Of a stretch of 64,000 nt of DNA, positions 1,020 through 4,106 are shown one piece after another. The position numbers and the translations under genes were made by a program. This stretch comes from Gemmatimonadota bacterium (lineage in GTDB: Bacteria; Gemmatimonadota; Gemmatimonadetes; Longimicrobiales; Gaopeijiaceae). Within the stretch, counting starts at the first letter, position 1. Each line of letters starts with the position of its first letter. The stretch spans positions 124,001-188,000 of the forward strand of contig JAUIEJ010000006.1 of NCBI GenBank assembly GCA_030428885.1, given 5' to 3'. The notes beneath the pieces were generated by a model. That model ran no database searches. It had not been told where the DNA came from and saw only the letters and a program-made list of their open reading frames with translations.

Positions 1020-2060
1020 TCACTCGTCGGTTCCGTTGTCGAACTCGATCTCGGGGCCGTCGGGCCCTCCGAAACGTACCGGGCCGGGCGGCGGCACCTC
1101 CCGACGAACATACCCCAGGGCCAGGGTGCCCCGCCGGGGCGAGACGGCCCCGCTGGTGACCACACCCACCGCCTTGGCCCCGTCGGCCCGCCACAACTCG
1201 GTGCCCGGGTCCGGGACCGGCCGGTCTCCCAGACGGAGGCGCCGCAGGTGACGGTTCACGTGGCCCCGGTCCCGGATGCGGACGATGACTTCCTGCCCGG
1301 TGTAGCAGCCCTTGTCGTAGTCGATGGCCCGGGTGTGGACCCCCGCCTCCACGGGGATGTGCTCTTCGGTGAAGTCCACACCGAAGGCCGGGCGACCGGC
1401 TTCGTGGCGGAGGGCGTCCCACACCTCCCGCCCCACCGAGACGGCGCCGGCGGCGTCCAGCCGAGCCCGAAGGGCCGACACGTCGGCGGCGTCGGCCACC
1501 ACGTCCCACGCCGGTTCGGAGACGTCGCCGCACCGGATGAGGGTCAGGGGCCGCGCCCCGCCCACCTCCACGGCGCGAAGGTCGCCTTCCGCCATGGCCT
1601 CCAGCTCCGCCGCCTCCAGACGGAGCCCGGTGGCCTCCCGGGCCAGAAGCCCGGCCCCGAGGGGGCCCAGCACGGTGAGCATGCCCGTCTCGGCCGACAC
1701 GTCGGTGACCCGGGCCAGGCGGGGAGGCAGAAAGCGGGACAGGTGGGCCTGGAGGGCCTCGGCCCCGGCGGCGGGGACGTCGAGGAGGAGCGACGCGTCG
1801 TCGCCGTGGGCCCCGGCCTCCCGCCACAGGCGCAGATCGGAGACAGTACGCCCCCTGGGCGTGAGCACCACCGAATATTCGGCTCGTCCCGCGCCCACCC
1901 CGTCCCCCTGCACCCAGGGGCCGGGCATGTGCCCGGTGACCACGCCCTGGAGCATGGCCGAGGGCTGCTTGCCCGTGACCGTCCATCGACGGCGATGGCC
2001 TCGGTCCCGAACCGCCGCGCCGGTGGTGGCCGCGGTCCACTCGTCCATGGGAACGGTCAC
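1020..2060 (-). CDS. ygfZ: YgfZ/GcvT-family folate-binding protein
   Basis: A 346-residue member of the YgfZ family, folate-binding relatives of aminomethyltransferase GcvT that help maintain certain Fe-S enzymes. The diagnostic signature KGCYTGQE is present near residue 247 and is followed by the usual basic RIRDRGHVNRHL stretch. The C-terminus has the GVVTSGAVSPRRGTLALGYV barrel typical of GcvT relatives. The start is GTG and overlaps the stop of the upstream SirB1-like gene by 4 bases, so the two are translationally coupled. An internal ATG lies four codons in. The catalytic residues of true GcvT are not expected, so an aminomethyltransferase role is unlikely. Confidence 0.88.
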   Translation of the reverse strand: MTVPMDEWTAATTGAAVRDRGHRRRWTVTGKQPSAMLQGVVTGHMPGPWVQGDGVGAGRAEYSVVLTPRGRTVSDLRLWREAGAHGDDASLLLDVPAAGAEALQAHLSRFLPPRLARVTDVSAETGMLTVLGPLGAGLLAREATGLRLEAAELEAMAEGDLRAVEVGGARPLTLIRCGDVSEPAWDVVADAADVSALRARLDAAGAVSVGREVWDALRHEAGRPAFGVDFTEEHIPVEAGVHTRAIDYDKGCYTGQEVIVRIRDRGHVNRHLRRLRLGDRPVPDPGTELWRADGAKAVGVVTSGAVSPRRGTLALGYVRREVPPPGPVRFGGPDGPEIEFDNGTDE

Positions 2061-2887
2061 GAATCTTCTCCCAGATCGCGCAGGATCGCCCGGACCCGGG
2101 GGGCCTCGGGCGAGCCCGGCGCCCGGTCCAGAAAGGTGCGGAGGTGCCGGGCGGCGTCTTCGGCCCGGCCGAGGCGGGCGAGGAGGAGTCCCAGCTCCCG
2201 ATGTTCATTGTGGGCATCGGGCCGCAGGAGCAGGATCCGCTCCACGGCGGCCACGGCCCGAACGTCGTCGCTCACGTTGGAATAGAGGCTCTTCAGGTTG
2301 TTCAGGAGGCGCACCAGCATGTCGCGCCGGGACGCCGCCTCGAGATACGACGGCCGAACCCGGACCATGCCGCCGTAGACCCGGTCCAGGAACTCCTGTG
2401 CCTGATCCTGGAATCGCACCTGGCCGCCGTCGAAGGGGTCCACCAGGAGCTGGAGCACGTCACCCGAATACCGCACCAGGAAGTGGTGCGGAAAGTTGAC
2501 GCCCTCCAGCGGCAGTCCCAGGCGCCACCCCACTTCCAGCACCACGATGCCCAGGGTCAGGGGAATCCCCTTCCGGCGATCCAGGACGTCGTTCAGGAAC
2601 GAGTTCCTGGGGTCGTAGTAGGCCTCCCGATTGCCCTGGAACCGGTGCCGGCGGTAGACCACGTCCAGCAACTCCTGGAGCACCACGGGAGGCGCCGATT
2701 CCTGCCCGAGTCGGTCCCGGACCTCCTCGGCCATCTGGTCCAGCCGGGCCAGGTAGGGCTCGGGAGGAAGCTGGGGATACTCCTCCCGGGCGATGAGGAG
2801 CGCGACCCGGGCGAGATCGAGATCCGCATCGGGCCGGGCGGCGGCCCGGGCGAAGTCCCGGCGGGGCGATGAAGCGGGGGCGGTCAC
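2057..2887 (-). CDS. SirB1-like transglutaminase-fold protein with TPR region
   Basis: A SirB1-family protein: an N-terminal transglutaminase-like domain (DRRKGIPLTLGIVVLEVGWR and GVNFPHHFLVRY are its conserved strips) followed by a helical TPR-like tail (DAHNEHRELGLLLARLGRAE). The biochemical function of this family is not settled; it is a common single-copy bacterial protein. I chose a GTG start at 2887. An ATG at 3013 with a good GGAGGA would add 42 poorly conserved residues, but it would overlap the selD start, which sits at 3012 on the other strand. The 125-bp gap left by the GTG start would hold both divergent promoters. The gene is coupled to ygfZ downstream by a 4-base overlap. Confidence 0.75.
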   Translation of the reverse strand: MTAPASSPRRDFARAAARPDADLDLARVALLIAREEYPQLPPEPYLARLDQMAEEVRDRLGQESAPPVVLQELLDVVYRRHRFQGNREAYYDPRNSFLNDVLDRRKGIPLTLGIVVLEVGWRLGLPLEGVNFPHHFLVRYSGDVLQLLVDPFDGGQVRFQDQAQEFLDRVYGGMVRVRPSYLEAASRRDMLVRLLNNLKSLYSNVSDDVRAVAAVERILLLRPDAHNEHRELGLLLARLGRAEDAARHLRTFLDRAPGSPEAPRVRAILRDLGEDS

Positions 2888-3011
2888 GTCTCTCGCGTCG
2901 GTGGTGCAGGTCGGATAGCTTGGCCCGTCCCAGGGTCGGGCCGGTGATGCATACCCGGCCACGGCCCCGGGTTTCCGCCCTTCCCCACCCTCCACCCAGG
3001 ACATCGTCGGC

Positions 3012-4106
3012 ATGACCGACTCCTCCAGGCCGCGGGATCAACGACCCCGCATTCGCCTGAGCCACCTGTCCCACGGCGCCGGTTGAGCGTGTAAACTCGG
3101 CATGGCCGAGCTGGCGCAGGTTCTGCGCCCCCTCCTTCCCAGCGGCGATCCCCACGCCCTCGTGGACGCATCCACGGGGGACGACGCCGCCGTGTACCTA
3201 CCCGACGGGACCGAGGGCGGAACCGCACGCGCCATCGTGGTGAGCGTGGACTTCTTCACCCCCATGGTGGACGACGCCCGGGACTTCGGCCGCATCGCCG
3301 CGGCCAATGCCCTGTCGGACATCTACGCCATGGGGGCCCGGCCCCTCTTCGCCCTGAACCTGCTGGGGTTCCCGCGCCGGCTCCTGGACTCGGGGCTCGC
3401 CGAGGGCATCATCGGCGGCGCCGCCGAGGTGGCGGCCCGGGCGGGAGTGCCGATCCTCGGCGGACATTCCATCGACGATCCCGAGCCCAAGTTCGGGATG
3501 GTGGCCGTGGGAGACGCGGATCCGGCGGCCCTGGTGACCAACGCCGGGGCCCGGGCCGGCGACCGCCTCGTGCTCACCAAACCGCTGGGCACGGGGGTGG
3601 TCACCACGGCGCTGAAGAACGACGCCGCCGACCCGGAGACCATCGCCTCGGCGGTGGCGTCCATGACCACCCTCAACGCCGCGGCCCGGGACGCCATGAT
3701 GGCCGTGGGGGTCTCGGCGGCCACCGACGTCACGGGCTACGGGTTGCTCGGCCACCTCCGCACCCTGCTCCGGGCATCGGGGGTGGAGGCCGTGGTCCGG
3801 GCCGACGCCGTGCCCCTCCTGCCGGGGGCGACGGCGCTGGCCCGGGCCGGTGAGATCCCCGGGGGCTCGTCCCGCAACCGGGCCGACCTGGAGAGCGACG
3901 TCCGGTGGGGCGACGGGGTGGACGAGGTCCTACGGGTTCTGCTGTGCGACGCCCAGACGTCCGGGGGACTCCTCATGGCCGTGCCCGGGGAGCGGCTGGA
4001 TCCGCTCCTGGCGGAATTGGCCCACCGAGACGTGGACGGCGCCGTGGTGGGCACCGTTCGGGAGGGCGACCGGCCGGGGCGGGTGGACGTGGTCCAGGGG
4101 TCGTGA
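3012..4106 (+). CDS. selD: Selenophosphate synthase SelD, itself a selenoprotein (in-frame UGA = Sec25)
   Basis: Selenide, water dikinase makes selenophosphate from selenide and ATP for Sec-tRNA and selenouridine synthesis. The conserved core is clear: GDDAAVY, VDFFTPMVDDARDFGRIAAA, LGGHSIDDPEPKFG, GGSSRN and LLCDAQTSGGLL. A start at ATG 3102 would remove the catalytic loop. Reading upstream in the same frame gives MTDSSRPRDQRPRIRLSHLS then HGAG-UGA-ACK, which aligns with the E. coli SHGAGCGCK loop, so the TGA at 3084-3086 falls exactly on the catalytic Cys/Sec. The true start is therefore ATG 3012, with AGGA about 10 bases upstream. Length with Sec is 364 residues, normal for the family. Read-through requires selA, selB and tRNA-Sec elsewhere in the genome; none is in this window. 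Confidence 0.93.
3096..3129 (+). promoter_or_regulatory. Candidate bacterial SECIS hairpins for selD
   Basis: Two hairpins follow the selD UGA. The first is a perfect 6-bp stem CTCGGC/GCCGAG with loop ATG (3096-3110), whose loop begins 16 bases after the UGA. The second is a perfect 6-bp stem GGCGCA/TGCGCC with loop GGTTC (3113-3129), whose loop begins 33 bases after the UGA. The second reads GCAGGUUCUGC, very close to the apical GCAGGUCUGC of E. coli fdhF, the known SelB-binding hairpin, and has G at the first loop position as bacterial SECIS elements do. Both distances are within the range accepted for bacterial SECIS. Which one is used is not known. Confidence 0.65.

Follow-up and report, generated by a model that had tools for sequence, protein, structure and literature searches.

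Selenide water dikinase (SelD) with selenocysteine (Sec) at its active site has long been known in bacteria (PMC1794560, PMC5029168, PMC13188914). It is one of the two most widespread bacterial selenoproteins (PMC1794560, PMC5029168), and the change from Sec to cysteine has recurred in this family (PMC1794560). According to a recent consensus, the bacterial Sec insertion sequence (SECIS) is a hairpin whose loop of 3-9 nucleotides (nt) begins with G followed by G or U, with a spacing of 16-37 nt and a folding energy of -7.5 kcal/mol or lower (PMC13188914). Here we describe a selD gene in a 64,000-nt stretch of Gemmatimonadota DNA (assembly GCA_030428885.1, contig JAUIEJ010000006.1, positions 124,001 to 188,000), hereafter the window. 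From comparison with its relatives, we are nearly certain that this is a selenoprotein gene whose UGA codon at position 3084 is decoded as Sec.

An in-frame UGA at the catalytic position of SelD

A mechanical open reading frame (ORF) finder reports only positions 3102-4106 at this locus. An earlier note, made from the sequence alone, had argued that such gene calls overlook the true start and truncate SelD, and that the frame upstream of ATG 3102 encodes a conserved SelD N-terminus interrupted solely by a UGA equivalent to Cys17 of Escherichia coli SelD. Each of these proposals has held. When TGA is translated as a residue, positions 3012-4103 read MTDSSRPRDQRPRIRLSHLSHGAG-U-ACKLGMAELAQ..., in which the one internal TGA is at 3084-3086. 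This full frame matches the NCBIfam SelD equivalog profile TIGR00476 with 361 bits (cut-off 125, E 4e-108, profile positions 1-309 of 311) and PRK00943 with 337 bits (cut-off 299). From ATG 3102 only, the TIGR00476 score is 334 bits, 27 bits lower, and the N-terminal 18 profile positions, which are matched only if the UGA is read through, are lost. A phmmer alignment with E. coli SelD (3u0o) pairs the UGA with Cys17 (SHGAG-C-ACK in selD, SHGAG-C-GCK in E. coli), such that the predicted product carries Sec at the catalytic position, followed shortly by the conserved Lys (U25-A-C-K). Given the full-frame profile match, the Cys17 alignment and the loss of the catalytic loop from ATG 3102, we conclude that the observation is correct.

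Initiation within 3012-3083 is plausible on the basis of the sequence, for example at ATG 3012 with the AGGA that precedes it. The position of the SelD start differs from genome to genome, and in three relatives (L137, L117 and L029) it must fall within the 23-28 codons that separate the UGA from an in-frame stop further upstream.

The closest named relatives are from Longimicrobiales and other Gemmatimonadota, with 78% identity to locus L020, and on their names the genome falls in this phylum, close to Longimicrobiales. We used tblastn to read the codon at the Sec/Cys site in SelD relatives from public genomes, and in 80 of 80 it was either TGA (44) or a Cys codon (36, comprising 19 TGT and 17 TGC), the pattern of a selenoprotein gene with an in-frame UGA where homologues have Cys. 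Because the UGA and the flanking protein are conserved across Gemmatimonadota down to approximately 43-60% SelD identity, the observation is not due to chance. Among the matches listed for the phylum, 123 of 150 selD genes contain one TGA and 27 contain none, and every TGA-less gene that was fetched has a Cys codon. Judged by these codons, Sec-containing SelD is common across Gemmatimonadota. A tree of 83 SelD genes requires at least 5-6 changes between Sec and Cys, which fits the recurrent Sec-to-Cys change already published (PMC1794560), and the family to which our selD belongs is entirely of the Sec type in the sampled rows. In one Gemmatimonadota SelD whose Cys codon is TGT (L070, approximately 2985-3020), the glycine-rich loop is about six residues shorter (IRLT-GCACKLG), reflecting either a natural loss after the Sec-to-Cys change or an assembly error.

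Selenocysteine machinery and further candidate selenoproteins

The genome (5.39 Mb, 95% complete) carries one selA (519 bits), one selB above the cut-off (317 bits) whose product has a SelB beta-barrel and two SelB wing (winged-helix) domains, and a tRNA-Sec (74.5 bits) that has a UCA anticodon and a long extra arm. SelA, SelB and tRNA-Sec, the components that define the Sec-decoding trait, are therefore all encoded, which bears out the suggestion in the earlier note that this lineage decodes Sec. That note had also named a second, Cys-type selD as grounds for doubt, and there is none: selD is single in the genome, the next matches scoring 55 and 25 bits against the cut-off of 125. These four genes do not form an operon, being on separate contigs or at a great distance from one another.

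A further expectation was that other genes with in-frame UGA codons would be present. The selenoproteome was sampled family by family, and at least four such genes exist, each with one in-frame TGA. The fdhA gene has its TGA at the usual Sec site of FdhA (...DNCSRA-U-HAPTVAGL), and a hairpin with a GGUCU loop follows 18 nt after it, a loop and spacing that we take to be the same in E. coli fdhF. The other three are PF00578 genes (AhpC/TSA, peroxiredoxin-type) with TGA at a redox position, reading YRGHW-U-PWC, YRGHW-U-SHC and RARTRG-U-TIQ. The first two carry a UxxC motif and fit the described class of Prx-like thiol:disulfide oxidoreductases of the UxxC type (PMC13188914). Two of the PF00578 genes (L184 and L188) are approximately 3 kb apart on the same contig. 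No MnmH/SelU, the enzyme for selenouridine, was found in the 95%-complete genome, the best candidate being a weak 24-residue match of 20.8 bits, and no member of the SelW/T/H family was found in it.

Across the phylum, selD and selA tend to occur together. In a sample of 249 Gemmatimonadota genomes, 190 carry selD and 189 carry selA: both genes occur in 180, neither in 50, selD alone in 10 and selA alone in 9 (Fisher p ~6e-33, a statistic that ignores relatedness). Of six genomes with a TGA-type selD and no selA match, five have SelB over the cut-off, while the assembly of the sixth is fragmented and 88% complete, and SelB exceeded the cut-off in none of 13 tested genomes lacking both selD and selA. 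Judged by these genes, Sec decoding is widespread in a phylum that is unnamed in the main text of the searchable surveys of selenium use (PMC5029168, PMC4561486, PMC12013277, PMC13188914), an absence that is no proof of novelty.

Two hairpins downstream of the UGA

The RNA on the 3' side of the UGA folds into two hairpins, at 3096-3110 (hairpin 1) and 3113-3129 (hairpin 2). Hairpin 2 has a folding energy of -11.3 kcal/mol and a GGU loop at a spacing of 33 nt from the UGA, and it conforms to all the bacterial SECIS rules. Dinucleotide shuffles equalled it in 0.3% of cases, a proportion that rises to 6% (fdhA) over the five candidate genes; the other four have rule-type hairpins at 16-21 nt, two of them slightly below the strength cut-off (-7.3 and -7.0 kcal/mol). 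Within searches that admit uninterrupted stems only, and among related sequences that are not independent, a rule-conforming hairpin is present in 55 of 61 TGA-type selD genes of Gemmatimonadota versus 1 of 25 Cys-type genes. In TGA genes, hairpin 2 has 1.75 pairs more than synonymous-codon shuffles, whereas Cys genes show no excess. A search of Rfam returned nothing relevant at the selD locus, and its model RF00031 is uninformative here, as it had no match in any genome scanned, controls included. Elsewhere, one Cys-type selD (L111) retains a SECIS loop hairpin (CGCAGGTCCTGCG) 33 nt after its Cys codon, probably a fossil of a former Sec codon.

The window holds 207 open TGA sites, of which 14 are followed by a rule-conforming hairpin, that of selD being the second most stable. 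By inspection, the read-throughs at the other 13 resemble Arg/Pro-rich off-frame translations or simple run-ons beyond a gene stop.

Hairpin 1 is conserved as well. A stable hairpin at nt 6-29 after the UGA, again sought as an uninterrupted stem and among related sequences that are not independent, is found in 94% of the Gemmatimonadota genes with a distal SECIS (19% in synonymous shuffles) and in 75% of such genes from other phyla (shuffles 11%), as compared with 24% (shuffles 15%) and 0%, respectively, of Cys genes. Of 56 TGA genes, 54 use CTC for the Leu encoded within its stem, as against 39% CTC in the remainder of those genes. Stems from other phyla frequently differ in sequence and register (GGUCC...GGACC being one example), which points to conservation of structure rather than of sequence. 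The spacing of the SECIS loop in SelD genes of Actinobacteria, Firmicutes, Chloroflexi and Gemmatimonadota is bimodal, at 16-17 or 32-33 nt (L033-L099), the shorter distance occurring in other phyla and in deep Gemmatimonadota branches. L078 and L093 are among the few SelD loci with G loops in both hairpins.

It is appropriate to ask whether hairpin 1 is itself the SelB-binding SECIS, with hairpin 2 as an accessory. It is conserved, and it is placed like the SECIS of other SelD genes, with its loop 16-17 nt after the UGA. However, the required G is missing from its loop in the lineage of our selD, whereas the GGU loop is present in hairpin 2 of nearly all relatives and hairpin 2 is nearly always missing from Cys genes, and we consider this assignment unlikely. 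Instead, hairpin 1 is probably a folded spacer: if its 15 nt were looped out, the SECIS loop would effectively be 18 nt from the UGA, the distance seen in fdhA. More generally, we propose tentatively, and with slightly more doubt than conviction, that a two-hairpin SECIS operates in many SelD mRNAs, in which a proximal hairpin lacking a SelB-binding loop would act as the folded spacer and SelB would bind a distal hairpin with a GGU loop. No description of a second conserved hairpin between UGA and SECIS was found in the portions of the selenium literature consulted. This arrangement, less expected and mildly unusual, is the only fresh detail at selD.

We envisage that the ribosome would start near ATG 3012 and arrive at the UGA, whereupon SelB carrying Sec-tRNA-Sec would dock on hairpin 2 via its GGU loop and insert Sec. 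The resulting SelD would make selenophosphate from selenide and ATP. SelA would use this selenophosphate as the donor for Sec-tRNA-Sec, and therefore the synthesis of SelD would need its own product.

Might the true gene begin at ATG 3102, with the upstream reading being a fossil or coincidence, SelD being short and the UGA a stop or an untranslated codon? This is what ORF finders return, but IRLSHLSHGAG before the UGA and the residues just after it are conserved throughout the phylum and match the E. coli catalytic loop, and ATG 3102 is kept in only 19 of 49 relatives (CCC, CAG or others elsewhere), leaving the idea with very little probability. Still less credible is a Cys codon damaged by sequencing error or gene decay in a metagenome-assembled genome. 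A single base change converts TGC or TGT to TGA, but TGA occupies the same codon in independent assemblies (at approximately 60 loci in Gemmatimonadota and 29 in other phyla), which by itself refutes the idea; in addition, the remainder of selD is intact and the genome has Sec machinery. Global reassignment of UGA, be it to Trp, Gly or another residue, or readthrough without Sec, would also place a UGA in frame but is just as hard to credit, given that selD and the neighbouring genes ygfZ (YgfZ/GcvT-like) and lon end in TGA, which marks UGA as a normal stop here, and that the in-frame UGAs stand at known Sec sites with SECIS-type hairpins after them.

Decoding of UGA 3084 as Sec thus remains our strongly favoured interpretation, although some considerations count against it. 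The support for a Sec-containing SelD is comparative throughout, such that translation through the UGA and catalysis by Sec are predictions, and the binding of SelB to hairpin 2 is presumed from the published consensus rule. The selD start codon is a provisional assignment. Hairpin 1 has a conjectural role, and in 6 of 49 relatives a C-A mismatch replaces its outermost pair.

Genomic context and comparison with known systems

Two minus-strand genes precede selD in the window (Table 1) and are given as context, the function of the nearer one not being tied to selenium. The sequence CATG at 3011-3014 means that selD and its divergent neighbour may start at overlapping ATGs on opposite strands. 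The N-terminal part of the neighbouring protein is without a family match, and its start may for this reason be further downstream.

Table 1. Features of the selD locus (window positions) and further genes with in-frame TGA (genome:contig:positions).
Feature	Position	Strand	Comment
YgfZ/GcvT-like protein	1020-2060	-	Stop TGA; context
Transglutaminase-like core 2 and TPR protein (SirB1-like)	2057-3013	-	Divergent neighbour; context
AGGA	2998-3001	+	Possible ribosome-binding site, from sequence
selD (selenide water dikinase, predicted selenoprotein form)	3012-4106	+	364 aa, one of them Sec; terminates at TGA 4104-4106
UGA, predicted Sec codon	3084-3086	+	Residue 25; equivalent to E. coli Cys17
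Hairpin 1 (CUCGGC-AUG-GCCGAG)	3096-3110	+	Between UGA and hairpin 2; conserved; loop fails SECIS G rule
ATG of ORF-finder call	3102-3104	+	Within hairpin 1 loop; not conserved
Hairpin 2 (GGCGCAG-GUU-CUGCGCC)	3113-3129	+	SECIS-type; proposed SelB-binding element
fdhA (L130)	G000:C23:110714-112720	-	TGA at Sec site
PF00578 gene (L184)	G000:C22:70404-70805		SECIS-type hairpin
PF00578 gene (L187)	G000:C16:14725-15108		SECIS-type hairpin
PF00578 gene (L188)	G000:C22:67069-67458		SECIS-type hairpin

In practical terms, ordinary ORF calling drops the catalytic end of SelD in Gemmatimonadota. The selD leader also offers a natural test of the distance, and of the folded spacer, over which a SECIS acts on an upstream UGA.

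The E. coli enzyme (3u0o) has the same order of motifs and aligns over residues 13-349, with Cys17 there and, by our prediction, Sec here. A more distant homologue of solved structure (PDB 2yye and 2zod, which we take to be Aquifex aeolicus SelD) scores 184.7 bits versus 246.1 for E. coli SelD. Closest in kind are the Sec-containing SelD proteins of other bacteria (PMC1794560, PMC5029168, PMC13188914), which have the same UGA at the Cys17 position, the same glycine-rich catalytic loop, an accompanying SelA, SelB and tRNA-Sec, and Cys forms among their relatives. The proposal that selD is a selenoprotein gene is well supported, and only its novelty is tempered, since Sec-containing SelD is widespread (PMC1794560, PMC5029168). 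What differs is the lineage, together with a SECIS loop near the far end of the range and the extra hairpin before it. Likewise, relative to the bacterial SECIS consensus model (PMC13188914), hairpin 2 agrees in loop, spacing and energy, whereas the extra conserved hairpin that precedes it departs from that model.
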